IMG/VR virus record: IMGVR_UViG_3300030098_001480
Location: 1 to 40,196 of that record
Length of the DNA: 40,196 nt
Strand: one strand, 5' to 3'
DNA from: a virus
Notes under the pieces: model-generated
The model's database searches: none
What the model was told of the DNA's origin: nothing
Seen by the model: the letters and a program-made list of their open reading frames with translations, nothing else
Position numbers and translations under genes: made by a program
Shown: piece by piece, positions 13,170 to 38,929 of the stretch
Position numbering within the stretch: the first letter of the stretch is position 1
Layout: the number at the start of each line of letters is the position of its first letter

Positions 13170-13298
13170 TTACTTCTCCTTACTAGGTTTCCACCCTGTT
13201 TTACGTAATGTACCATATACATAAGCATTTTTAGCTGATTTTGACAAGTTTTTCTTATTTGCTCGTTTTTTTAGCTTAGCTTCTAGTTTTTTTGGCAC
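13170..13298 (-). CDS. 42-aa conserved basic miniprotein (YGTLRKTGWKP)
   Basis: A GTG start at 13298 has an SD-like AAGGATAGAA just upstream. The product begins MPKKLEAKLKKRANKKNLSK and ends AYVYGTLRKTGWKPSKEK. The block '(L)K..A.KK.LS..A..AY.YGTLRKTGWKP' occurs in many phage small proteins. It overlaps the last 23 bases of the portal gene in another frame. Its strong family look makes it likely real despite the size. Confidence 0.65.
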   Translation of the reverse strand: MPKKLEAKLKKRANKKNLSKSAKNAYVYGTLRKTGWKPSKEK

Positions 13299-15717
13299 TT
13301 CTATCCTTATCTGCCTTATCTAAGGCAACATTTGCACGTAATTGAGCTATATCTTCCTGACTTTCTATCTTTTCACGTGTTAATTTATCTGTTTGCTGTA
13401 ATTTTTTCTCATCTAAGGCTTGTTTTTCACCCATTGCAAACGCTTTTAGCTCTAAATCGTCTTTTCTTAAGTCAATTTCTTGTTGTTTTAAGTCAACTAG
13501 GGGGTCATTAGCAACATTATCCATCATTTCTTGTTCTTCAGCCACCATTTGCTCTGTTATTTCTGCTATTCTTATAGCTACGCCACTTTCTGTGCGTTGT
13601 GCTAACTGTTGTTGTTGCTCTGGTGTCATTTGTCCACCTGTTTGAGCCATCATTTGCTCCATTTCAGGCCTTAATTCTTCTTGCACTATTGATCTAGCCA
13701 TAAATCCTACATGCTCTGATATGTGTGACTGTAAAATTTGCATCGCAGCGGGGTTAGTTTTGACTAAAGCTGATGACATGAACGCTCTATGTGCACGAAT
13801 ATGTGCAGAATGATCTTGTTCTGGAAATGGTAAAGGTGGTAAACCATTTAATGTACCTGCATTTTCTATTGCTGGATCTTGTGGTTGTGGTTCAGATGGT
13901 GGTGGTAATAGTTTTTCAATGTCTTGCACACCTAATGCTGAATACATTCTAGCGTAAGCCTCTCTTAAATCATGCATTTCTGGATTAGATTGTGCTAATT
14001 GTAATTGTGACTGAGCTAATGTAACCCTTTGAGCCATAGAAAATATGTTTGGGTCAGATACAGGTATAACATCTACTCTATCATCAAAGTCTGATTGTTT
14101 AATATTTTGTTCTCCACCTGAAACCATATAAGGATAATTAGGTGGTAAGTAATCTGCAAATACTTTAGCTAGTAAATTAAATTCAGTTTTTTGTGCATAG
14201 TGTAATCTTTTGTGTATGGCAGACATAACTTTCATTCCACGCTCTAATATTGCCATCGTGGTTCCAACAGGTTGTTGTTGACTACCTGCATTCTCACCGA
14301 TCATCATATCAGCGACACCTGCAAATCTTCTACCTGCATCAACTACAAAACCTAATAAACTAAATAGTGTTGCACTAGGTTCTTTGTAAGGTAAAGGCAT
14401 CAAAGATTCACGTAGATTACCGCCAGGTGCATCTACATCTCTCCATTCGCCAGGATTTATAGCCTCATCATCATCTCTGATTCTTAAACCTCTAGCTTTG
14501 AAACCAGCTGGTAAGTTTGACAAAGTTCCTGCGTCCACAAGTTGACGTAATGCTGCAGTGGCAGTTCTAGATAAACCACCTAGCATATGTATTAAACCAA
14601 AACCATAAAATCCTAAACCAGGTAAAAATTTGAAATGTGTGAAAAATTCTTTCTTTTTTCTAAGCGGATCACCTTGTGTCCAGTTACGGTAAATAGACAA
14701 AACTTCACCAGAATCTTCATCTATGGTAACAATATACGGAACCATAATACCTGTTTTTTTATTATTAGGTCCCATGTCTTCGAAACCGGGTAAATCTAAA
14801 TCAACATGCATCTCTAAGATATTGTGTTCATCCTCAGCAAAAGATATTTGCTCTACTCCTGATAACTCATCTTGCTTTTCTTTTATTTCATCTGTATTGA
14901 CTGAGCCACCAGATAAATCAATATCTCTATAAAATCCAGACACTTGATTTTTTCTTAGATCATTGTGTTTCATTTTTACAATGTGTGTGATTCTGTTACA
15001 TGATTCTAGGTCTGTAATAAAATAAGGAACCACCAAATCTTCTGCTGGTACAAATTTAGAAACTGCTCTTTCTAATGTTGAGTCATAGTAAACTTTTTTG
15101 AAAGCAGAACCTGCTAAAGGTAAATGAAATAGCATTTGATCTAGCTCAGGATCAAACTCCTGCATCTCAGTAGTTATTTGATAGTTCATAAAGTTTTTTA
15201 TTCTTTCAGCTTGTTGTTCTACAGCTAATGAGGGTGAACCTAATATTTCTGTTCTGACGGGTCCGCCAGGTGGTAATAATTCTTTGTAAGCTTGTGCTTG
15301 AAATTGTGTTACTGCTTCAGCTAACAACGGATGTGTTACACCTGCAGCACCTGCGAAAGGTTTTGATCTTTCTTCGTATTTAAATCCTAATAAGTCTAAA
15401 CCATCCTTATATGTTTTTTCCCAATCGGATCTTGAATTCTTATCATCTTCATAATTTTTTTGTAAATCTGATGACAACTTTTGTAATACATCATCATCCA
15501 TAAATTCTGCCAAGTTTGCAAAATAATCACCTTCTGATTGTTTTTTTGTAGGATCAAAATCTAGTGTTACGCCACCATCTTCTTCTTGTATAACTTCTAC
15601 TTCTTTAGTGGTGTTTTCTGGTTCACGTAATTGTATCTCTTCTCCAACACCTTCAACCTCTAAATTTTCATTTGGCGATATGTCAATCGCTGTATTTTGT
15701 ATACGCTTTTCTACCAT
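13276..15717 (-). CDS. Portal protein, P22-like (813 aa)
   Basis: Residues 1-75 are acidic and disordered. From about residue 80 the P22-like portal pattern begins (DWEKTYKDGLDLLGFKYEER, PFAGAAGVTHPLLAEAVTQF, AQAYKELLPPGGPVRTEI). A central segment covers the wing and stem (FKKVYYDSTLERAVSKFVPA; FTHFKFLPGLGFYGFGLIHM; AGTLSNLPAGFKARGLRI). A long Gln/Glu-rich coiled tail follows residue 690. It forms the dodecameric ring for DNA entry and tail attachment. The start overlaps the upstream gene by 7 bases. The size fits P22-type portals in marine phages. Confidence 0.85.
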   Translation of the reverse strand: MVEKRIQNTAIDISPNENLEVEGVGEEIQLREPENTTKEVEVIQEEDGGVTLDFDPTKKQSEGDYFANLAEFMDDDVLQKLSSDLQKNYEDDKNSRSDWEKTYKDGLDLLGFKYEERSKPFAGAAGVTHPLLAEAVTQFQAQAYKELLPPGGPVRTEILGSPSLAVEQQAERIKNFMNYQITTEMQEFDPELDQMLFHLPLAGSAFKKVYYDSTLERAVSKFVPAEDLVVPYFITDLESCNRITHIVKMKHNDLRKNQVSGFYRDIDLSGGSVNTDEIKEKQDELSGVEQISFAEDEHNILEMHVDLDLPGFEDMGPNNKKTGIMVPYIVTIDEDSGEVLSIYRNWTQGDPLRKKKEFFTHFKFLPGLGFYGFGLIHMLGGLSRTATAALRQLVDAGTLSNLPAGFKARGLRIRDDDEAINPGEWRDVDAPGGNLRESLMPLPYKEPSATLFSLLGFVVDAGRRFAGVADMMIGENAGSQQQPVGTTMAILERGMKVMSAIHKRLHYAQKTEFNLLAKVFADYLPPNYPYMVSGGEQNIKQSDFDDRVDVIPVSDPNIFSMAQRVTLAQSQLQLAQSNPEMHDLREAYARMYSALGVQDIEKLLPPPSEPQPQDPAIENAGTLNGLPPLPFPEQDHSAHIRAHRAFMSSALVKTNPAAMQILQSHISEHVGFMARSIVQEELRPEMEQMMAQTGGQMTPEQQQQLAQRTESGVAIRIAEITEQMVAEEQEMMDNVANDPLVDLKQQEIDLRKDDLELKAFAMGEKQALDEKKLQQTDKLTREKIESQEDIAQLRANVALDKADKDRSAKKTRS

Positions 15718-18700
15718 GCATTAGCTCCTATAGGAGATAGTAAATCATTTAATGAAACTATCGGTGTGTATAATATACTTTTTTTCACTAGACCTCCATC
15801 CTTTTTATAAGCTTTATATGGAGTTAACATATCAGGTGTCAACTCTATCATAAAAGTATCTACACCAGAACCTGCATGACCCATATCTACTTTGCCTACT
15901 TCTACTTTTGAATTTTTCATATTAGCTATTTTGTTTAGTGTTTCTTCAACATTACTTGTAAAGTGTTGACCTGTATGATCGTTTAGATTAGGACCACCGT
16001 ACTGCATGTCATAAGCCACCATTTTACCACTTCTTCTATCAGCGTCTGGTGGCACCTCTACGCCTCTACCACCTTGATAAGCTTTGACAGCTTTAGATGG
16101 CACAACGGCATAATGACTTGGTGCGCTTTGATTAACAACTAAATTACCTGATTCGTCAAAACTAAATCTAGCCTTAGCTGCGTGATAAATGTCATTTTTT
16201 ATTATAGCATCTACCCAATCTTTTTGATCTTTTAAAGGTATATTAGGAAATAAATCAGTAGAATCTATGTTATCAATAGTAGAGTTAATTCTTTCAAGAG
16301 CTAAATCTCTTTTAGTTGCAGCCTCACCTAATTCTTTAAAACTAGCTTTAGTTATATCATCCATCTCCATTTTACCTATCCTTTGAAAGATGGCATCTGC
16401 TTCTATTAACTCATCAATAGATTTTTTTAGCTCAGCAAAAGTAGCTGGCATTGGTCGAAACACATTTTCTAATCTTTTGTAAAGTTCATCTAATCCTATT
16501 CGTTGTCCTGGTGTATCAGTCATATCATTTATATATCTTCTAATCTGTGCTTTTATATCAGATTTTAAACTTGCTGCTTTTTGTAAAAAGTCAGATTGAA
16601 TTTCGTCAGCTATGTTAACTTTTATAGATCTGTTGTTTAAAGTTGCGTTTCTATGACTACTCAAAGACCAACCCACAACATACGGCTCTCCTACTAATGT
16701 ATTATTTTGTGCTCCAAAATCTGGACTTGTGTCTACACGTCTCATGTTACCATGACCCTCATATTGTCTTATTTCCTCAGGTAATGATCCCACGTCTCCT
16801 CTTATGTCTTTAGAGTCTATCCATAAAACTCTTTCTGTTCTTGTGCCGTCTATATAATTTGAGTGTCTACCAGAATCACCATATTTCAAAGTTCCCGTAG
16901 CATCACCGTAGGATACCGTTTGTAAATAATTTGTTGGTGATGTATCAACTAGTTCTTTAATTTCTGCATAAGAAATTTTTTGATCATTTGTAAACTGACC
17001 TGTTTCTCTGTTAAAACCGCCTTTTTTGTTCAAGTAAGATCTAATATAGGAATCGTAAAGTTCACTTTCTTTTATACCTTTAGATCTAAACCAGTCATGC
17101 CAATCTTTCGCTGACATGCTAACTACTTCTGATGATAAATTTTTTCCTCTAATATTTAAAGTTGATTGATTTATAACATCGTCTAATTCAGAATAAAATA
17201 ATTTATTATTACCTGAACCTATAATTGTTTCTGGTGTCACTGTCGGAACTAATGCTGTGCCAGGTTTAGTAGTAGGTTTCTTTTTTACTTTTACAGGAAC
17301 ATCAACCTCTTTAACTGTAAATGTTTTACCTTCTAAGTCTCCTAAGCGTAACGCTTTTTGTTGTGCATCATCTAAGCTTTTTGATTGAAATACTTTCTTG
17401 CCAGTGTCGTCATAAATATCATATCGCTTTTCTAGTACGGGTGCCTCTGGTGCTGGTAATTCTAATTTGGTTTCAACTTTTTTTGTAACTTGCGGTGTGT
17501 TACCTAATAAAAAATTTTTTGGTAAAGGTAATGCTTCTGCTTTTGGTACTAATAAGTTTCCTATGGCTGACGCTGCTTTTGATACAATAGATTGTTTTTC
17601 TTGCTCAGTTTCTACATCACCCCCCTCTACAAAGTTTGTGGGCTTACCTTCTCCTATGTATGGGGCATCACCTTTAATAAACATTTCATCAGAGGATGCA
17701 TCGCCTGATTTAGGTCTTGCATTTGATATTTTAAATGAAGATGGGTTATTAACATAACCATCCATTCTCATATCAAAAAAAGCTATATTATCCTCTAATG
17801 AAAAAGATTTTTCACCAATGTATAAACTTTTTACTCCAGCTTGTTCTGGTTCTACTTGTGCTTTATTTCCTACTTTTGCTTTTAATATTTTAAAAACATT
17901 ATCTGGCATCTGTTTATCAGAAAATCTAAGATAAGTTTCGAGTCCTCTCTCAGTCATTGATTTATTAACATCAACAAGCTTGTTTAGATTTTTTTCAACA
18001 TTCTTTCCATTTTTAATCTCTGACACAATTTTTCTAATAATATTTTCATATTGTTTTTGTGTTCCAATATTATGGGCAGCAAAATTTACGTTAAGAAAAG
18101 GTGCTTGAAACATCTGACCCTCTAAATTTTTTGCTAATTTAAACTGTTCACCTTTGACAGGTGTTGTAGCTTTCGTAGCTCCGATAGGCATAATATGTGA
18201 CATTTGTGCGTTAAAGTGTGTGGTTGCGTAATCGAATGCCATGCCCTCTACATCGTCATTTATTGACGCAGTTCTATTTGGATATTTAGATTTGTATTGA
18301 GATACAAATTGATTTCTAAATCCTTCATTATTTTTAACAGTGTCAACAAATTTTTTTATAGCATAGTCTGTTAAATTTTTTGCATGTGCTACTTTTGATA
18401 AATATTCTTCATATGATCCTGGCTCTTTAAAATATTCATCTTTAATAAAAGCAAATAATTTATTTCTTTTCTCTCGCATCGCTGTTTTATCATACTCAGG
18501 ATTAATATCATAAATAGGCTCACCCTTTTCATTTAACACAGCTTTACCGTCTGCGTCTAATCTTTTAATTCTATTTGGAACAAAACCATACTCGTCCATT
18601 AATTTTAAAAACTCTTCTTCATTACCAAAGCCACCTGCTCTGTACATATCTCTAATTATTGTGTGTTGTGCTCGTGCCTCAACTGTTGATTCTCTAGTAA

Positions 18701-19874
18701 AACCAGGAAAATAAGAATAAAATTGACCTATTGCTCTTTCACCACTTACCTCTCTTGCCCCTACCAGTTGTGCTAATTCAGATTCAGGATTATCATTTAA
18801 AATTCTTGTCAAGGTTGTTCTAGCTATCGGAGTGTTGTTTTCCTTAAGAATATTTACTGCTTCTAATTTATTTAATTTACCACCTTTTGTTTGCACTGCA
18901 TTTCTTAATATTTCTAAAACCTCTTCAGTTACCTGCTCTCCTCTTTCAACTTGCACTGGTGCTTTGAATTTTGCAATAAAACTATTTGGATTATTTCTTG
19001 CATATTCTTCTATAACTTCTACTTTAGTTCCAACATCTCCTGCCATAGTAGTAGGTGCTATGCTATTATTTGCACCTCCGTAATAAAGACCTAACGCACT
19101 GTCATACTTATCTATTTTTGCAGTTTGTTTGGCTTTATTTGTTTTTTTTATTTTTTCTTGAGTTACTGGATCTTGCGTTCCATATTTTCTTTCAACTCCA
19201 GTTGATATAGTTTTTGTTACATCATCTCCTGCATCAACTAAAAACTTTTGTGCCAATTTATTTTTACCTGCTCTTGCAGCATTTATCGCCATACGTATTG
19301 GAACAGTAATAGGGGTAATTAAACCAAGTGTAGAAATATCAACTGTATCTATAATACCAAACAAATAGTTTGTTAAATCATCACCCCTTAAATCACTTAC
19401 TCTAACTTCACCGTTTGCTACTTTTCTATGTATGTCCGCAGTATCATTAAAGAAAAAACCTCTAAACTGTTTAAATCTATCTCCTAATGTTAAAGGATTA
19501 AAATCCGTGTCTCTTCTGATTTCATTATATAATTTTTCTAATTCTGGTTGTCTTCGTTGCGGTATTAATTTGTTAATCTCATCTATTCGATCTGCATAAT
19601 ATTTTTGACTTAGTATATTTTTATTTAAGTCGTCACGTTCTCTGAGTGCAGTTCTTTCCTCTTCTGGAATATCTACTAAATTTAGTAAACCTGTTGTAAC
19701 TCCGCTTTTAGCGGGAGCCGCTGTCACTTCTTCAACAGCATCTTCCATTAAATTTGTAAGCACATTATTTTTTTCATTTTGCTTTGCAGTTAAAAAAGAA
19801 GGTAACTGATTTACCCCCTCAGCTGCATTATCGAAGAAAGGTTTTATTGAACTGTTAGTATCGGGTCTAGCCAT
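15711..19874 (-). CDS. Giant virion-associated / polyvalent-type protein (1387 aa)
   Basis: No full-length function is recognised. Residues 1-260 are helical with an amphipathic stretch (GIIDTVDISTLGLITPITVP). Residues 280-600 form a helical region with YGGANNSIAPTTMAGD and GQFYSYFPGF motifs. About 730-900 is a Pro/Lys/Thr-rich linker with NFVEGGDVE. The C-terminal 480 residues carry TERVLWIDSKDIRGDVGSLP, KVNIADEIQSDFLQKA, KDWVDAIIKNDIYHAA, SHYAVVPSKAVKAYQGG and FMIELTPDMLTPYKAYKKDG. The EIQSD...W...A block recalls 'polyvalent' proteins of podophages, which may be ejected with DNA. It lies between TerL and portal, and overlaps both. Confidence 0.55.
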   Translation of the reverse strand: MARPDTNSSIKPFFDNAAEGVNQLPSFLTAKQNEKNNVLTNLMEDAVEEVTAAPAKSGVTTGLLNLVDIPEEERTALRERDDLNKNILSQKYYADRIDEINKLIPQRRQPELEKLYNEIRRDTDFNPLTLGDRFKQFRGFFFNDTADIHRKVANGEVRVSDLRGDDLTNYLFGIIDTVDISTLGLITPITVPIRMAINAARAGKNKLAQKFLVDAGDDVTKTISTGVERKYGTQDPVTQEKIKKTNKAKQTAKIDKYDSALGLYYGGANNSIAPTTMAGDVGTKVEVIEEYARNNPNSFIAKFKAPVQVERGEQVTEEVLEILRNAVQTKGGKLNKLEAVNILKENNTPIARTTLTRILNDNPESELAQLVGAREVSGERAIGQFYSYFPGFTRESTVEARAQHTIIRDMYRAGGFGNEEEFLKLMDEYGFVPNRIKRLDADGKAVLNEKGEPIYDINPEYDKTAMREKRNKLFAFIKDEYFKEPGSYEEYLSKVAHAKNLTDYAIKKFVDTVKNNEGFRNQFVSQYKSKYPNRTASINDDVEGMAFDYATTHFNAQMSHIMPIGATKATTPVKGEQFKLAKNLEGQMFQAPFLNVNFAAHNIGTQKQYENIIRKIVSEIKNGKNVEKNLNKLVDVNKSMTERGLETYLRFSDKQMPDNVFKILKAKVGNKAQVEPEQAGVKSLYIGEKSFSLEDNIAFFDMRMDGYVNNPSSFKISNARPKSGDASSDEMFIKGDAPYIGEGKPTNFVEGGDVETEQEKQSIVSKAASAIGNLLVPKAEALPLPKNFLLGNTPQVTKKVETKLELPAPEAPVLEKRYDIYDDTGKKVFQSKSLDDAQQKALRLGDLEGKTFTVKEVDVPVKVKKKPTTKPGTALVPTVTPETIIGSGNNKLFYSELDDVINQSTLNIRGKNLSSEVVSMSAKDWHDWFRSKGIKESELYDSYIRSYLNKKGGFNRETGQFTNDQKISYAEIKELVDTSPTNYLQTVSYGDATGTLKYGDSGRHSNYIDGTRTERVLWIDSKDIRGDVGSLPEEIRQYEGHGNMRRVDTSPDFGAQNNTLVGEPYVVGWSLSSHRNATLNNRSIKVNIADEIQSDFLQKAASLKSDIKAQIRRYINDMTDTPGQRIGLDELYKRLENVFRPMPATFAELKKSIDELIEADAIFQRIGKMEMDDITKASFKELGEAATKRDLALERINSTIDNIDSTDLFPNIPLKDQKDWVDAIIKNDIYHAAKARFSFDESGNLVVNQSAPSHYAVVPSKAVKAYQGGRGVEVPPDADRRSGKMVAYDMQYGGPNLNDHTGQHFTSNVEETLNKIANMKNSKVEVGKVDMGHAGSGVDTFMIELTPDMLTPYKAYKKDGGLVKKSILYTPIVSLNDLLSPIGANAW

Positions 19875-21334
19875 TAATAATATTCTTTTCGAATCTTGGG
19901 CACTGGATCATCGACAAAGTCATCCTTCAATCTTAAGAAGTTACCTTGTCTAAAACGCATTACGGCTTGTGTCATGCTATCCACCAAGTCATCATGATCT
20001 CCATAAGGGAACGCTGCGCACTCCTCAATTACATCCTCCGACCATCTTGTGTCGGGTGTCCATATCATACCACTTTCGAACAACGGTGCAACTGAATTAA
20101 CTCTAACATGTTTATCTTGTCCTTTGCTTGGTGTAAAATTTACAACAGGGACTCCTATCTGTCTTAACTCGTGTGTAAGCGGTAGCCCTGATGCTTTAGC
20201 CTCAATTATAACTGTTTCGGGTTCCCAGTACTTGTATTCTTTGTACGCTATCTTTTTTAATTCAGGAAAGTCCCACCGACCACGTTTCGCATCCATTAGT
20301 ATTAAGTGTGGTACATTGTTAGCTTTAGGATAGAATACTCCCCATGTAGTAATGGCAGAGTAATCAGCTGTTTCTCTTTTACTAAAAGCTGTATCATAAC
20401 TTTGAATTATGTGATGTAAATCAGGTATATCTTTCTCCTCCCACACTTGCCACCACTCTCGTTTGATAATACTACCCTCTTGAGATACGGGAGACTGTTG
20501 CCATTGTGCGTTCCATTTACTTGCTGATAGTGACGCTTTTACTGACTCTAGTTCTGGTAATGACCAGAAACCAGGCCATACTGGTTTACCACTAGGCATG
20601 ATTGCAGGAAACTCTACAACTTCCCATTGATCTGCTTTAATCTCTGATTGTTTTTTTATCAACTTTCCTGTTAAGTCTTTCACGGACCAACGGGTCATAA
20701 CAATGACTATTGCACCACCAGGCTGTAAACGCTGACGAGGACCAGAGGTATACCACTCATAAGCTTGATCGAGGGCCGTGTCGCTTAGTGCGTCTTGCTC
20801 GGAATGCGGATCATCGATAATGAGCAGATCGGCACCACGACCAGTAACCGCACCGCCTGTACCAGCAGCAAAGTATTCACCACCTTGAGCCGTCTCCCAC
20901 CGACCAGCTGCCATGCTATCGGGTTGTAATTCAGTTTTAAAAATTTTTTTATACTCTTGCGTTTCCATAAGGTTCCTGACTTTACGTCCAAAGCGAATAG
21001 CAAGTTCTCCTGTGTGAGTGGTTTGCATTATCTTTGCTTTTGGGTTTTGGCCTACGAACCACGCAGGAAATAAGAAGGACGCAAACTCTGACTTAGTGTG
21101 TCTAGGAGGCATGTTAATGATCAATCGTTTTAGTTTACCAGATGCAATATCTTCAAATTTTTTAGAAATTATTTTGTGATGTGAACCCTCTTTGAACTCT
21201 GGCCAAACAGATCTTACGAATGGTAAAAAATTTTTTTGTGACTGCTCTTGAACAGAATATTCTAATTTTTTTATTTTTAATTTTTGAGCTAGAAGTCTCG
21301 CTTCTTCTTGAGTTAATGTCTCTATTGATTCCAT
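19874..21334 (-). CDS. terL: Terminase large subunit (486 aa)
   Basis: ATPase domain: Walker A-like MPPRHTKSE at 75-83, adenine-binding region upstream (FLPFVRSVWPEF), Walker B DLLIIDDPH at 169-177, and coupling motif TRW near 214. Nuclease domain: acidic residues in SYDTAF (D314), VIIEAKASG (E378) and GDHDDLVDSMTQA (about 445-460), with the RNase H-like order. It cuts concatemers and drives DNA into proheads, with the small subunit at 25174-25644. The missing classical GKT (here HTKS) is common in this terminase group. The ATG overlaps the start of the 1387-residue gene's operon by one base. Confidence 0.95.
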   Translation of the reverse strand: MESIETLTQEEARLLAQKLKIKKLEYSVQEQSQKNFLPFVRSVWPEFKEGSHHKIISKKFEDIASGKLKRLIINMPPRHTKSEFASFLFPAWFVGQNPKAKIMQTTHTGELAIRFGRKVRNLMETQEYKKIFKTELQPDSMAAGRWETAQGGEYFAAGTGGAVTGRGADLLIIDDPHSEQDALSDTALDQAYEWYTSGPRQRLQPGGAIVIVMTRWSVKDLTGKLIKKQSEIKADQWEVVEFPAIMPSGKPVWPGFWSLPELESVKASLSASKWNAQWQQSPVSQEGSIIKREWWQVWEEKDIPDLHHIIQSYDTAFSKRETADYSAITTWGVFYPKANNVPHLILMDAKRGRWDFPELKKIAYKEYKYWEPETVIIEAKASGLPLTHELRQIGVPVVNFTPSKGQDKHVRVNSVAPLFESGMIWTPDTRWSEDVIEECAAFPYGDHDDLVDSMTQAVMRFRQGNFLRLKDDFVDDPVPKIRKEYY

Positions 21335-23005: not shown

Positions 23006-23461
23006 CTATGGTTCGGTGGCGATGTCGCAAGATTCACGGTAATGGAAAAACGATTCCATCACCTGCAGCAGCTTACCTGGATCCCAAGGATAGGGGATAA
23101 TGGCCAGGGGCTCTGTGTCTAAACCCGTAATGGAGAGTTCACGGGCCATGCCACCTGAATATATATACAAGGCTCTATTAGGGAGGGTCGCAGCCATAAT
23201 AAAATTCAGTCCACCTGCTTCATTGTAGCTGTAATTCCACGATATTTGACGTGGAGTCAATGCTATTTTTTTCAGCTTAGTACATTTTAATTCTACAAAA
23301 AAGCTTATTGGATATCCGTCTTTACCACGAAAAACTCCATGTAAATCAGGAACACCAGGCGAACTGAAAGATTCTATTCTAGTCCAATGAACTTCGGGAG
23401 TAATCTCCTTCAGTTTTTTCCAAAATTTAGTTTCTGGTTTTGCTGTCATATGGTACACCAT
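23006..23461 (-). CDS. VRR-NUC-like PD-(D/E)XK nuclease (151 aa)
   Basis: The core GVPDLHGVFRGKDG (catalytic D) and SFFVELKCTKLKKIALTP (ExK) around residues 47-80, followed by a Q residue in TPRQISWN, match PD-(D/E)XK/VRR-NUC nucleases. These process branched DNA or resolve junctions in phage recombination and packaging. The start is set at ATG 23461; 23449 is an alternative, and an earlier non-ATG start would lengthen overlap with the 58-residue frame. The C-terminus contains a copy of the island repeat. Confidence 0.75.
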   Translation of the reverse strand: MVYHMTAKPETKFWKKLKEITPEVHWTRIESFSSPGVPDLHGVFRGKDGYPISFFVELKCTKLKKIALTPRQISWNYSYNEAGGLNFIMAATLPNRALYIYSGGMARELSITGLDTEPLAIIPYPWDPGKLLQVMESFFHYRESCDIATEP

Positions 23462-23603
23462 CTTCGTTTGCAATGATGCTTTTTGAGAGTATCTTGCCAA
23501 AAACATTAAACCAAAAATGCTTAAACGCAGTTGACTTGGCTGCGTGCATAGCTTTCAATGCTCTTTGTTGACGCTCAATACTCAATGTTATTTTGTCATC
23601 CAT
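23427..23603 (-). CDS. 58-aa hypothetical overlapping methyltransferase and nuclease
   Basis: ATG at 23603 has a strong SD (AAGGAG, 7 bases upstream). The frame begins MDDKITLSIERQQRALKAMH and ends DGVPYDSKTRN. It overlaps the end of the methyltransferase gene by 16 bases and the start of the nuclease gene by 35. Basic and helical at the N-terminus. The family is unknown to me. Confidence 0.55.
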   Translation of the reverse strand: MDDKITLSIERQQRALKAMHAAKSTAFKHFWFNVFGKILSKSIIANEDGVPYDSKTRN

Positions 23604-24532
23604 AACATATCTCCTTTCTTAATACTCATTCCAATACAATAAGGTATCATCGGAACTAAACTGTTGCCTAATGATTTAAGTCTGTCCACCCTTTTGGGTA
23701 CCCCATGAGCCACTCTACCCACGTTGGGTTCAGACTGCCACCACTGTGTCCAGCTAACCTGCCCTTCTTCTTGACTTTCTCGTAATTCACATTCGGACCT
23801 GCGTCTCGCCAATCCCTCGCTGTCGGTGTCGGGAACCTCTGTTGTTTCCCCTCCACCAACTCTTTCAATCCCCGACCATAACCCACGGTTGTCCTCCCTG
23901 GCTCCTTTGCTCTTGGTGTTGGCCACATCAGATTCGGATGTCTGACTTGGTCGTTCAAACTGATAGGTAGGTTCTTTTCCAATTTCATTTTCATCCTGGT
24001 TTCCGAACAGGGTCCTCTCATGCTGTGTGCATCTGGAGTGCGCCAATATCCAGACCCTTTCTCTTTGGTGGTTTGCACCGATGCTCGAAGCTGAAATACT
24101 AAACGCCCTTGTGGCGTAACCTTCACTCTCCAAGTTCTCAAGTACGGTGTCCAAACCGAGTTTAATGTGTCCACTAACATTTTCTCCAATAACCCAAGTC
24201 GGCCTGAGTTCTTTGACAAGTCTAAACATCTCTGGCCAGACGTGTCTCGGATCTTGCTCGCCTTTTTGGCGTCCAGCGATGCTGAACGGCTGACACGGAT
24301 ATCCTCCTGTGATGATGTCGACTTCAGTATGTCCATTTGCTGATAATCTTTCACTATTTAACTCCTTTACATCGTCATAAATTGTAACCCACGGCCAATG
24401 CTTACGTAAAACTTTTTGACAGTATTGATCGTAATCACAAAACGCTACAGTTTCAAATGCACCTGTAGCTTCTAAACCTAAACTAAATCCGCCTATACCT
24501 GAAAACAAATCTAAGTGTTTATACTTCTTCAT
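23588..24532 (-). CDS. dcm: DNA cytosine-5 methyltransferase (314 aa)
   Basis: Start at ATG 24532 (MKKYKHLDLF); an upstream start would overlap the previous gene by 50 bases. Motif I LDLFSGIGGFSLGLE (7-21), motif IV GGYPCQPFS with catalytic Cys80, motif VI ENV (117-119), motif VIII QRERVW (156-161), target-recognition region about 165-265, motifs IX-X RVDRLKSLGNSLVP (281-294). It methylates C5 of cytosine in a specific site, probably to resist host restriction. No cognate restriction enzyme is seen. The 3' two-thirds carries a second open frame (23668-24354) and is more GC-rich than its 5' end. Confidence 0.95.
   Translation of the reverse strand: MKKYKHLDLFSGIGGFSLGLEATGAFETVAFCDYDQYCQKVLRKHWPWVTIYDDVKELNSERLSANGHTEVDIITGGYPCQPFSIAGRQKGEQDPRHVWPEMFRLVKELRPTWVIGENVSGHIKLGLDTVLENLESEGYATRAFSISASSIGANHQRERVWILAHSRCTQHERTLFGNQDENEIGKEPTYQFERPSQTSESDVANTKSKGAREDNRGLWSGIERVGGGETTEVPDTDSEGLARRRSECELRESQEEGQVSWTQWWQSEPNVGRVAHGVPKRVDRLKSLGNSLVPMIPYCIGMSIKKGDMLWMTK
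23668..24354 (-). CDS. Nested same-strand overlapping gene inside dcm (228 aa)
   Basis: A second frame on the same strand lies wholly inside the methyltransferase gene. It starts at GTG 24354 with an excellent SD (AAAGGAG, 7 bases upstream) and runs 228 codons. It contains SGYWRTPDAHSMRGPCSE, NLMWPTPRAKEPG, FPTPTARDWRDAGPN and GGSLNPTWVEWLMGYPKGWT. The 'WPTP', 'PTPTARDW' and 'LNPTWVEWLMG.P.GWTDL' blocks are ones I recognise from phage proteins annotated around DNA methylases. Both frames therefore look protein-like. The product could be a partner or specificity protein; its function is unknown. Confidence 0.65.
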   Translation of the reverse strand: MKDYQQMDILKSTSSQEDIRVSRSASLDAKKASKIRDTSGQRCLDLSKNSGRLGLLEKMLVDTLNSVWTPYLRTWRVKVTPQGRLVFQLRASVQTTKEKGSGYWRTPDAHSMRGPCSETRMKMKLEKNLPISLNDQVRHPNLMWPTPRAKEPGRTTVGYGRGLKELVEGKQQRFPTPTARDWRDAGPNVNYEKVKKKGRLAGHSGGSLNPTWVEWLMGYPKGWTDLNH

Positions 24533-24923
24533 TATTTTCTTCTGGTATAAATATCGGACTTTTACCACCTTTTGCTGCTAAATCTTTATCTATGTAATCA
24601 AGCTTGTTATCATTTCGCACACTATGTCCTTGATATATACTATCCATTAACTGATTTGGTGTTAACATCTCATGTGTGCGATCTGAAAAAATAATTACAT
24701 ACACATGTGTTTCACTTGTCTTAGTCAAGACTTTCCATCTTTTAAATCTATGTATTGCCTTACCAAAAGATTTAGATATGTATTCTTCCATTTTATGTTT
24801 ACCTAACAATCTTTCTTCTTGACCTTTCAATGTTATTTTCCAAATAGGTTGTTCATACATACCAGTTCCAGGATTAACTGCGCCTTCATCTAGCTGTTCT
24901 AATGCTACTATTATTTTAGACAT
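24519..24923 (-). CDS. Hypothetical protein (134 aa)
   Basis: Mixed alpha/beta protein beginning MSKIIVALEQLDEGAVNPGT and containing WKITLKGQEERLLGKHKMEE, YVIIFSDRTHEMLTPNQL and an acidic tail. No motif identified. It overlaps the upstream gene (24916) by 8 bases and the methyltransferase start by 14, so all are in one operon. The N-terminal part may bind nucleic acid, but that is speculation. Confidence 0.65.
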   Translation of the reverse strand: MSKIIVALEQLDEGAVNPGTGMYEQPIWKITLKGQEERLLGKHKMEEYISKSFGKAIHRFKRWKVLTKTSETHVYVIIFSDRTHEMLTPNQLMDSIYQGHSVRNDNKLDYIDKDLAAKGGKSPIFIPEENNEEV

Positions 24924-27140: not shown

Positions 27141-27241
27141 TTGCGCCTCCTATTTTTATATCTACTAGATCTACGCCTTCTTTTTTTAGATCCTATTTTT
27201 CGTCTACCTTTATGAAACCCCGCTCTTCCTGTGTGAGCCAT
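27137..27241 (-). CDS. 34-aa Arg-rich miniprotein
   Basis: ATG at 27241 shares a base with the stop of the oxygenase gene (TAATG). It begins MAHTGRAGFHKGRRKIGSKK and is then nearly all Arg/Lys/Ser (RRRRSSRYKNRRRK). Such a peptide would bind nucleic acid or fold with a partner. Its overlap with both neighbours supports expression. Confidence 0.55.
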   Translation of the reverse strand: MAHTGRAGFHKGRRKIGSKKRRRRSSRYKNRRRK

Positions 27242-27900
27242 TACTTATCAATACCCTTGCCAACATCTTGTCCGAGAACCTTAGATCTTAAATGTATATT
27301 AAATGCCATAGATCTACGCTCACCCTCACTACGAAACGGATAAACCTGGTGCGATAACCAACTAGGAAATATATACAGATCACCTATCTGTGGTTTAGCC
27401 ATGTGTGAATGCTTACTAAAAGTATTTGGTACACTACCTAAAAATTCTAAACAACCAACACTAGGATAATGATCCTCTCTTCTAAACTCTTCTTCGTAAC
27501 CTGGCGGTACTTTTAAAAAGAATACACCTGATAGCTGCGAGTCGTGTATGTGTACAGGATTAAAATCACCTGCGTACTGACTTACAACCCATGAAGTATA
27601 AGTCATATTAGTATTTTCTGGATTAAATTGATTACCAACAGTTTTTAGTATATACTCCGTCACTAATTTATTTATTACTAACTCCAGTGACTTAACTTCA
27701 CCTAAAGACAATGCTATTTCTTTTTTTACGTTACCAGCTAAATTAGAGCTATAATCTAACTGCTCTGATCTTTTATCATCGTTTAATATATCGTCAGCTT
27801 TCTTATTTACTTCATCAACTATATTTTGTGGCACAGAACTCTTCATAATCCGTGGTCCGAAAGGCGTGAACATATCATAACTAATTTGTTTCTCTTGCAT
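27241..27900 (-). CDS. 2OG-Fe(II) oxygenase, 2OG-FeII_Oxy_5 type (219 aa)
   Basis: Double-stranded beta-helix signature: FNPVHIHDSQLSGVFFLKVP (His/Asp metal ligands, about 114-133), then KPQIGDLYIFPSWLSHQVYP (distal His) and GERRSMAFN (Arg that binds 2-oxoglutarate). This matches the phage-rich family of putative 2OG-Fe(II) oxygenases (PF13759-like). It would hydroxylate an unknown substrate, using host 2-oxoglutarate and oxygen. It lies first in an operon after a structured 180-base leader. Common as an auxiliary gene in marine phages. Confidence 0.85.
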   Translation of the reverse strand: MQEKQISYDMFTPFGPRIMKSSVPQNIVDEVNKKADDILNDDKRSEQLDYSSNLAGNVKKEIALSLGEVKSLELVINKLVTEYILKTVGNQFNPENTNMTYTSWVVSQYAGDFNPVHIHDSQLSGVFFLKVPPGYEEEFRREDHYPSVGCLEFLGSVPNTFSKHSHMAKPQIGDLYIFPSWLSHQVYPFRSEGERRSMAFNIHLRSKVLGQDVGKGIDK

Positions 27901-37520: not shown

Positions 37521-38156
37521 ATGGCTTATCTTAATCATAATCTACCTCCTTTCAGTGCTTATATAAGAGACGAATATTTATATGACCACGAGAAAGGACA
37601 CGGTCAATTTACTTTTGCTGACGTGCATACTGTAAATAGTCTTGAGCGCAGAGCACTTTTATTTGAGTGTTTATTACCCAACGGTGTAAATTGGACTAGA
37701 AGACCAATACATGCTTTTTGTTGGAAAAAAGATGCACCTAAACATCCTTTAAATATACATCAATATTGGGACTGTTTTTCACCTTATGTGGACGTACAAA
37801 GAAGAAACAGGTTAGCTAATTGTAGAGCAGAATTAGTAGACTACAAAGGCACAAAAAGAAAAGGCACTTACATGTTTACTATAGATTGGGCATGGGAAAA
37901 CAAAGCTGGTATGTTAGATACTAACTTTAGTGAAGATCCTGAACATAAATGTGCACACATGTTTCGTATGGATGACGGTAATTTTTTTGCATATCCAAAT
38001 AATAGAACTATTTGGTATGATGACGCTTTTATGGAAGAGAGATTAGTAAAGAACCCAGGATATAAGATTGATCAAAACTTTTACACAGTAGAAAACACTA
38101 GAGAAGAAGACACTAAGACTGATGACTCTTACATGACTCAGTTTGAACGCCCTTAG
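37521..38156 (+). CDS. Conserved phage hypothetical (211 aa)
   Basis: Begins MAYLNHNLPPFSAYIRDEYL and YDHEKGHGQFT; then many aromatic residues (CWKKDAPKHPLNIHQYWDCF). It has the pattern of a marine phage protein family without assigned function, seen from memory next to SNF2 or replication genes. It has no evident SD, with the ATG 15 bases after the helicase stop. The stop overlaps the start of the next gene (TAGTG). A soluble beta-rich protein. Confidence 0.7.
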   Translation: MAYLNHNLPPFSAYIRDEYLYDHEKGHGQFTFADVHTVNSLERRALLFECLLPNGVNWTRRPIHAFCWKKDAPKHPLNIHQYWDCFSPYVDVQRRNRLANCRAELVDYKGTKRKGTYMFTIDWAWENKAGMLDTNFSEDPEHKCAHMFRMDDGNFFAYPNNRTIWYDDAFMEERLVKNPGYKIDQNFYTVENTREEDTKTDDSYMTQFERP

Positions 38157-38929
38157 TGAAAATATTTTTTGATCATATTACTGGTAAATTAACACACTAC
38201 GATTTACTTTATAGTTTACCATTAGCAGAGTTTGAAAAACATGAGTATGACTATGCATTTAACAATGGCTGGTTACCTCTTTCTTGGTACTATACAAAGA
38301 TAAATCACATTACATGGATTAATGCCAGGTCCAGTAGACTGCAGCTTTCAAAGTTTACATTCTCTAAAAAACAAAAATATACATTAAATAAAAAAAATAT
38401 AAGTGTTCATACTTACGATAAGTTACCTACATATTTAGTAGATGATATTGCAGAAATATATAAAAAATATATTCGTCAAAAAAATTACTATGAAATAAAT
38501 AATGAGAAAGAAAGTGAAGAGTTTATGCGTGATGATCCGATTGATTGGAAGTATTTTATTTATTTTTACAAAGATAAACCTATCGCTTTTACTGAAGCCA
38601 TGATGATTGACAATCATTTTATGACAGGACAATTTGCATGGGATTATGAAAATCCTAAATTAGGCATGGGCACCTACGCTACCTTACACGAGATAAAATA
38701 TTGTATGAACTGGAATTACCAGTATTATTATTTTTCTTACAGTTATGAAAATAGCAGTGCATATAAATCAAAGTACGATGGCTTTGAGTTTTGGACAGGT
38801 AGAGAATGGTGTAAAGACAAAAATGTCTATAATCAACTATGTAAAAATGATAGTAATATAAAAAATTTAGCTGATCTTAATGATAATCAACAAAAGTATT
38901 TTGATTTAGTTTTTGGCGCTCATGTTTGA
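38156..38929 (+). CDS. Aminoacyl-tRNA-protein transferase-like (ATE/Bpt-like, 257 aa)
   Basis: GTG start overlapping TAG (TAGTG). The sequence follows bacterial leucyl/arginyl-tRNA-protein transferases: HEYDYAFNNGWLPLSWYYTK (E.xYD.l...GWR), INARSSRLQLSKFTFSKKQK (..R..v..F..s.sqRR.l), then EIYKKYIRQK and the C-terminal domain YFYKDKPIAFTEAMMIDNHF, PKLGMGTYATLHEIKYCMNW (LGtYa.L.eIe) and SSAYKSKYDGFEFWTGREW (.mayK..F.P.e). The N-terminal Cys pairs of Bpt are missing. The GNAT-like fold would add Leu or Arg to protein N-termini, marking them for ClpS/ClpAP decay. The assignment is by motif order from memory. Confidence 0.6.
   Translation: MKIFFDHITGKLTHYDLLYSLPLAEFEKHEYDYAFNNGWLPLSWYYTKINHITWINARSSRLQLSKFTFSKKQKYTLNKKNISVHTYDKLPTYLVDDIAEIYKKYIRQKNYYEINNEKESEEFMRDDPIDWKYFIYFYKDKPIAFTEAMMIDNHFMTGQFAWDYENPKLGMGTYATLHEIKYCMNWNYQYYYFSYSYENSSAYKSKYDGFEFWTGREWCKDKNVYNQLCKNDSNIKNLADLNDNQQKYFDLVFGAHV

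Follow-up and report, generated by a model that had tools for sequence, protein, structure and literature searches.

A gene nested in the +1 frame of a phage cytosine methyltransferase gene very probably encodes the second half of a split C5 enzyme

The DNA analysed here (the window) is a virus contig of 40,196 bases, and terminase, portal, DNA polymerase, helicase and primase genes mark the neighbourhood of the genes described below as that of a phage genome. On the minus strand lies a methylase open reading frame that starts with ATG at 24532 and stops at 23588, an alternative GTG start being possible at 24568. This gene, which we call alpha (23588..24532, 314 aa), is assigned to the large subunit of a C5 cytosine methyltransferase on the basis of PF00145, phrog_363, an AF2 model and Foldseek. 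A reading of the open frames reveals a second gene, beta (23668-24354, minus strand), which lies wholly within the methylase frame in the +1 phase, one base out of step with alpha. Beta starts with GTG at 24354, comprises 228 codons and a stop, and is preceded by AAAGGAG-TTAAATA-GTG, in which the internal Shine-Dalgarno sequence (24362..24368, minus strand) stands 7 bases before the start codon. An earlier note on this DNA had described the nested frame, its coordinates, its GTG, its AAAGGAG at 7-base spacing and its different phase on the same strand, all of which proved exact. The rise in GC content that it reported is likewise present: 0.45-0.56 in the nested part vs 0.30-0.38 upstream of the methylase gene and over its 5' end.

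Other genes in the window deserve mention in their own right. The gene just downstream of the methylase (23006-23506, minus strand) matches phrog_2165, labelled DNA helicase (E 2.1e-13), and has no Pfam match; the sequence of its product looks nuclease-like. A 2OG-Fe(II) oxygenase family protein is encoded at 27241-27900 (minus strand; PF13759, E 1.1e-20). At 38156-38929 (plus strand) lies a gene for a predicted protein with the arginyl-tRNA-protein transferase C-terminal domain (PF04377, E 4.9e-9, above the curated cut-off), a domain unexpected in a phage genome. Between the portal gene (13276-15717) and the gene of the terminase large subunit (19874-21334), an open reading frame of 1387 aa (15711-19874, minus strand) has no PHROG match at 1e-3.

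Alpha has the catalytic large domain of a C5 cytosine DNA methyltransferase, with motifs I, IV (PCQ), VI (ENV), VIII and X, and it matches phrog_363 with E 3.5e-77. Its invariant residues are G12, G14, G15, P79-C80-Q81, E117-N118-V119, R157, R159 and G289-N290. The match to PF00145 (E 8.1e-41) spans residues 5-203 of alpha and only positions 2-189 of the 324 in the profile. In the AF2 model, residues 1-170 form a mostly confident catalytic domain, residues 171-272 are nearly all below pLDDT 50 and predicted to be disordered, and residues 281-313 are helical, giving a confident C-terminal region that holds motif X. Foldseek aligns the model with M.HhaI (E 1.2e-14) over only about 170 columns, of 327 residues. 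A small domain with TRD and motif IX was not found in the alpha chain. Since the profile match is partial, the M.HhaI match short and residues 171-272 predicted to be disordered, alpha appears to have neither TRD nor motif IX. The earlier note's statement that the main frame retains all C5-methyltransferase motifs thus has to be given up, as alpha lacks motif IX and the small domain.

Beta matches phrog_1008 (E 7.5e-28), a methylase-associated phage family, in keeping with the note's remark that its motifs occur in phage proteins near methylases. Searches of beta against PDB, Pfam and NCBIfam returned no significant match. Modelled alone by AF2, beta reaches pLDDT 66.5 and pTM 0.33, with a predicted N-terminal helix and hairpin, and Foldseek found no significant match for this low-confidence model. 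The C-terminal segment, LNPxWVEWLMG, contains nine columns that are invariant in 83 sequences, and repeated TPxAxD units precede it. In the window the motif-IX-like segment, LNPTWVEWLMGYPKGWTDL, is encoded at 23677..23733 (minus strand), DNA that in the alpha frame encodes the residues running up to motif X (around NVGRVAHGVPKRVDRLK). The variable, mosaic TPT modules (WRTPDA..., WPTPRA..., FPTPTARD...) occupy 23734..24045 (minus strand), which also encodes most of the linker predicted to be disordered in alpha. Aligned by hhalign with the methylase of Mycobacterium phage Phasih, the beta segment gives a probability of 95.9 over 22 columns; a profile of the IX-X region searched against PDB places DRM-type C5-methyltransferases at the top, weakly (E 0.017). 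At the level of sequence and position, the invariant columns, the low third-position change in alpha and the mycobacteriophage counterpart show that the C-terminus of beta conforms to motif IX in both its motif and its place in the order.

Shuffling the synonymous codons of the methylase introduced a mean of 10.7 stops into the nested frame at the window locus, and 0 of 300 shuffles were free of stops. The same procedure over 87 loci (the window locus, six annotated loci from phages or plasmids, and 80 viral contigs retrieved by a search with the nested protein) gave a mean of 9.0 nested stops per locus. Yet both frames are open in all 87, while the third frame has 5-35 stops across the same stretch; the single nested stop counted, at one locus (L003), marks where beta naturally ends. 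As these loci had been picked by beta, a second set of 154 viral loci was picked by alpha alone. In every one of the 154 the +1 frame is long, with a median of 252 aa and a minimum of 187 against a median of 40 for the third frame, and the motif-IX pattern was matched in 145. Seven of the nine misses were inspected, and each bears a close variant, EWLMAYP, EFLMGYP or EWLMGYP after LNC; in one locus (L353) the variant sits further inside the frame. Stops interrupting the nested frame in close relatives, for which the earlier note had advised looking, are therefore absent from the interior of beta in both sets.

The pattern of substitution points to the same conclusion. Among 787 pairs of relatives, which are not independent of one another, the change at third positions of alpha is 0.43 upstream and 0.50 downstream of the overlap vs 0.27 inside it, whereas change at first positions, the wobble positions of beta, rises from 0.215 to 0.296 inside. 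In 32 of 32 disjoint pairs the third-position share is lower within the overlap, with the mean falling from 0.733 to 0.435 (sign test p 4.7e-10), indicating that synonymous change in the main frame is clearly suppressed. The suppression is strongest over motif IX (0.094), where residues of beta are more conserved than those of alpha (0.88 vs 0.81). Likewise, beta is the more conserved in the module region (0.50 vs 0.43), whereas alpha is the more conserved over motifs IV-VIII (0.83 vs 0.76). Synonymous shuffling and the substitution pattern together rule out a chance open reading frame. The earlier note was thus right that two proteins are encoded by one stretch: openness in relatives and the substitution pattern show that the nested frame is genuine.

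The start signal of beta is conserved as well. Of the 52 loci whose start codon falls at the aligned position, 42 have AAGGAG, and in 57 of 61 loci the start codon lies exactly 7 bases past the site. At the two alpha codons of this site, AAG is used in 57 of 63 cases and GAG in 50 of 59, against 23% and 34% elsewhere in alpha. Biased codon choice in alpha evidently keeps the internal Shine-Dalgarno sequence, which is hence under selection. Together the substitution and codon patterns show selection on both alpha and beta, the latter with a conserved internal initiation signal of its own.

Relatives reveal how the segments of the two frames belong together. In the methylase of Phasih (YP_009961062.1), a single open reading frame holds motifs I-VIII, LPTP units, LHPAFPEWMMGWPAGWV and motif X (GNGVVP), which is the canonical order of VIII, TRD, IX and X. 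Single-ORF mycobacteriophage methylases of this type carry a motif-IX-type segment (WMMGWPAGWV) and LPTP units between VIII and X. At one locus (L152) alpha stops after motif VIII, and the TPT units, IX and X are found together in beta; in two mycobacteriophages (L204 and L205) the TPT units, IX and X are likewise in the +1 frame. That this block occurs in either frame among relatives is what is expected if it is part of one enzyme.

Two further variants were seen. At L158 (2694-3742) and L161 (2703-3712) the motif IX segment is read in the alpha frame and motif X in the third, which gives these copies a frameshifted look; they may be broken. Phasih (L177, 1306-1881) and similar single-ORF loci also contain a partial +1 open reading frame with a beta-like N-terminal domain (TSGPTYGKQF...SETWPKTGYMSDGRAFELP...LPTPR).

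The overlap layout was found in several hundred viral and bacterial sequences and is not special to this phage. Beta has 344 relatives in the genome collection, and the record titles of the best 80 name Bacteroidetes, Clostridia and other Firmicutes, several proteobacterial classes, Synergistaceae, Acidobacteria, Planctomycetes, Anaerolineales and others; many of these records are metagenome assemblies, where phage contigs may have been wrongly placed. At 76 of the 77 loci analysed on genome contigs beta lies at +1 inside alpha; at the exception, L152, it overlaps the end of alpha. The possibility that beta also occurs as an independent gene away from a methylase was considered and rejected, as each of these 77 relatives overlaps alpha. 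On the chromosome of a Roseovarius MAG (OX638333.1, L132-L136), five positions match an alpha/beta locus with identical statistics. In Paenibacillus larvae phages such overlaps are annotated as two methylases; the passages retrieved from the genome survey leave the overlap unmentioned, and no description of an alpha/beta overlap in phages was found in the literature searched.

Each beta contains 1-6 TPT modules, and 116 module orders were counted among 239 distinct sequences, with the modules clustered by single linkage, the largest cluster chained and the counts of module types accordingly approximate. The window locus and a relative (L008) have nearly identical flanks and a different middle module, and a module inserted at another locus (L012) is identical at 32 of 50 positions to one in a Bacteroides phage. 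In the multispecific methylases of Bacillus phages, tandem target-recognition domains are exchanged in like manner. TPT modules are thus swapped between relatives as target-recognition domains are, suggesting that beta is probably the specificity subunit.

Taken together, these sequence comparisons make it very probable that the two overlapping frames specify a single split C5 DNA methyltransferase, which would act as a heterodimer. Alpha would provide AdoMet binding and catalysis through motifs I-VIII and X, and beta would provide motif IX and recognition of the DNA sequence, binding alpha and so restoring the small domain. The linker of alpha could be dual-coded because it would only have to stay open and flexible. 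Methylation by this enzyme probably protects the phage's own DNA from host restriction; a partner nuclease was not identified next to the methylase.

It is quite unlikely that beta, although translated, is instead an independent protein such as a regulator, an anti-restriction factor or a methylase partner. Such a protein would fit the lack of Pfam and PDB matches, and the predicted N-terminal helix and hairpin has no assigned role, but the constant overlap of beta with alpha argues otherwise, as does the fact that alpha lacks exactly the segment that beta carries and that in other phages this segment shares a frame with motif X or with the entire methylase. Of the methylase-partner system that the earlier note considered possible, the two products stand, but beta is probably no independent partner and is most likely the missing IX/TRD half. 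Highly improbable, too, is programmed frameshifting or slippage that would join alpha and beta into a single fused chain. Beta has its own Shine-Dalgarno sequence, conserved at a fixed 7-base spacing, its frame extends far upstream through motifs IV-VIII, and two shifts would be needed to include motif X, even though the frame of TPT, IX and X differs among relatives and frame junctions hence move in evolution. A last alternative, that the nested frame has no translation product and that nothing but codon or composition constraints on the methylase keeps it open, has next to no chance of being right: a shifted frame could be held open by GC-rich repeats (ADTDSE in alpha, WPTPTA in beta), and codons are constrained in motif-rich regions, but synonymous shuffling yields about 9 stops per locus, the third-position share falls in every disjoint pair, beta exceeds alpha in conservation over the modules and motif IX, and the Shine-Dalgarno sequence is under selection.

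The split methyltransferase may be part of a broader picture, which we put forward tentatively. It is possible that the dual-coded enzyme is ancient and spans phyla, and that beta is its combinatorial specificity subunit, with an array of exchangeable recognition modules overprinted on the disordered linker of alpha. Recombination would then swap specificity in one frame and only filler in the other, and movement of the block between frames would give rise to monomeric, AquI-like or EcoHK31I-like enzymes.

Same-strand overlaps of more than 200 codons with both products under selection have rarely been established in prokaryotes. In the present case both frames can be tested across hundreds of relatives, and the frame switches among them present one enzyme as a monomer or as a split protein. 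Pfam has no family for beta, and annotations often miss it or list it as a second methylase; many C5 methylases of phages have therefore probably been described as complete although they are half enzymes. Alpha expressed alone would then show no activity or an altered one. Furthermore, the swappable modules offer a route to reading the specificity of these methylases.

Enzymes of this kind have precedents. M.EcoHK31I is a heterodimeric C5 methyltransferase of Escherichia coli with the target YGGCCR and a small subunit of 176 aa, and M.AquI recognizes CYCGRG. The gene for the small subunit of M.EcoHK31I is reportedly nested in another frame of the large one, an arrangement said to have been described by Lee, Kam and Shaw in 1995, and the nesting of beta out of frame would resemble it. 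The large subunit of M.EcoHK31I carries motifs I-VIII and X and the small one motif IX, with the predicted TRD placed in the large subunit (PMC3404938). M.AquI is a two-subunit C5 methylase divided after motif VIII, and its motif X is in the small subunit (PMC3404938).

By this published motif layout the window locus appears to be of the M.EcoHK31I type, with I-VIII and X on alpha and IX on a separate beta. It differs in belonging to a phage, in having no identified partner nuclease, in the size of beta (228 aa) with its variable TPT modules, and in that the recognition region is apparently in beta: residues 171-272 of alpha are predicted to be disordered, and the TPT region of beta corresponds to the position of the TRD in Phasih. 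The split after motif VIII is shared with M.AquI, but motif X is in alpha at the window locus, and an AquI-like division was found only in L152, L204 and L205. The single-ORF mycobacteriophage methylases have the same units between VIII and X, but all their motifs are in one frame and their +1 frame is only partial. PHROGs labels both phrog_363 (alpha) and phrog_1008 (beta) DNA methyltransferase and keeps them as separate families, the labels being silent on the overlap and on whether the two form a single enzyme. Because the motif arrangement matches that of M.EcoHK31I, we place the locus with this known kind of split enzyme and not in a new system; what is new is how widely it occurs, in viruses and in many phyla of bacteria, and the make-up of beta, with its 1-6 exchangeable TPxAxD modules.
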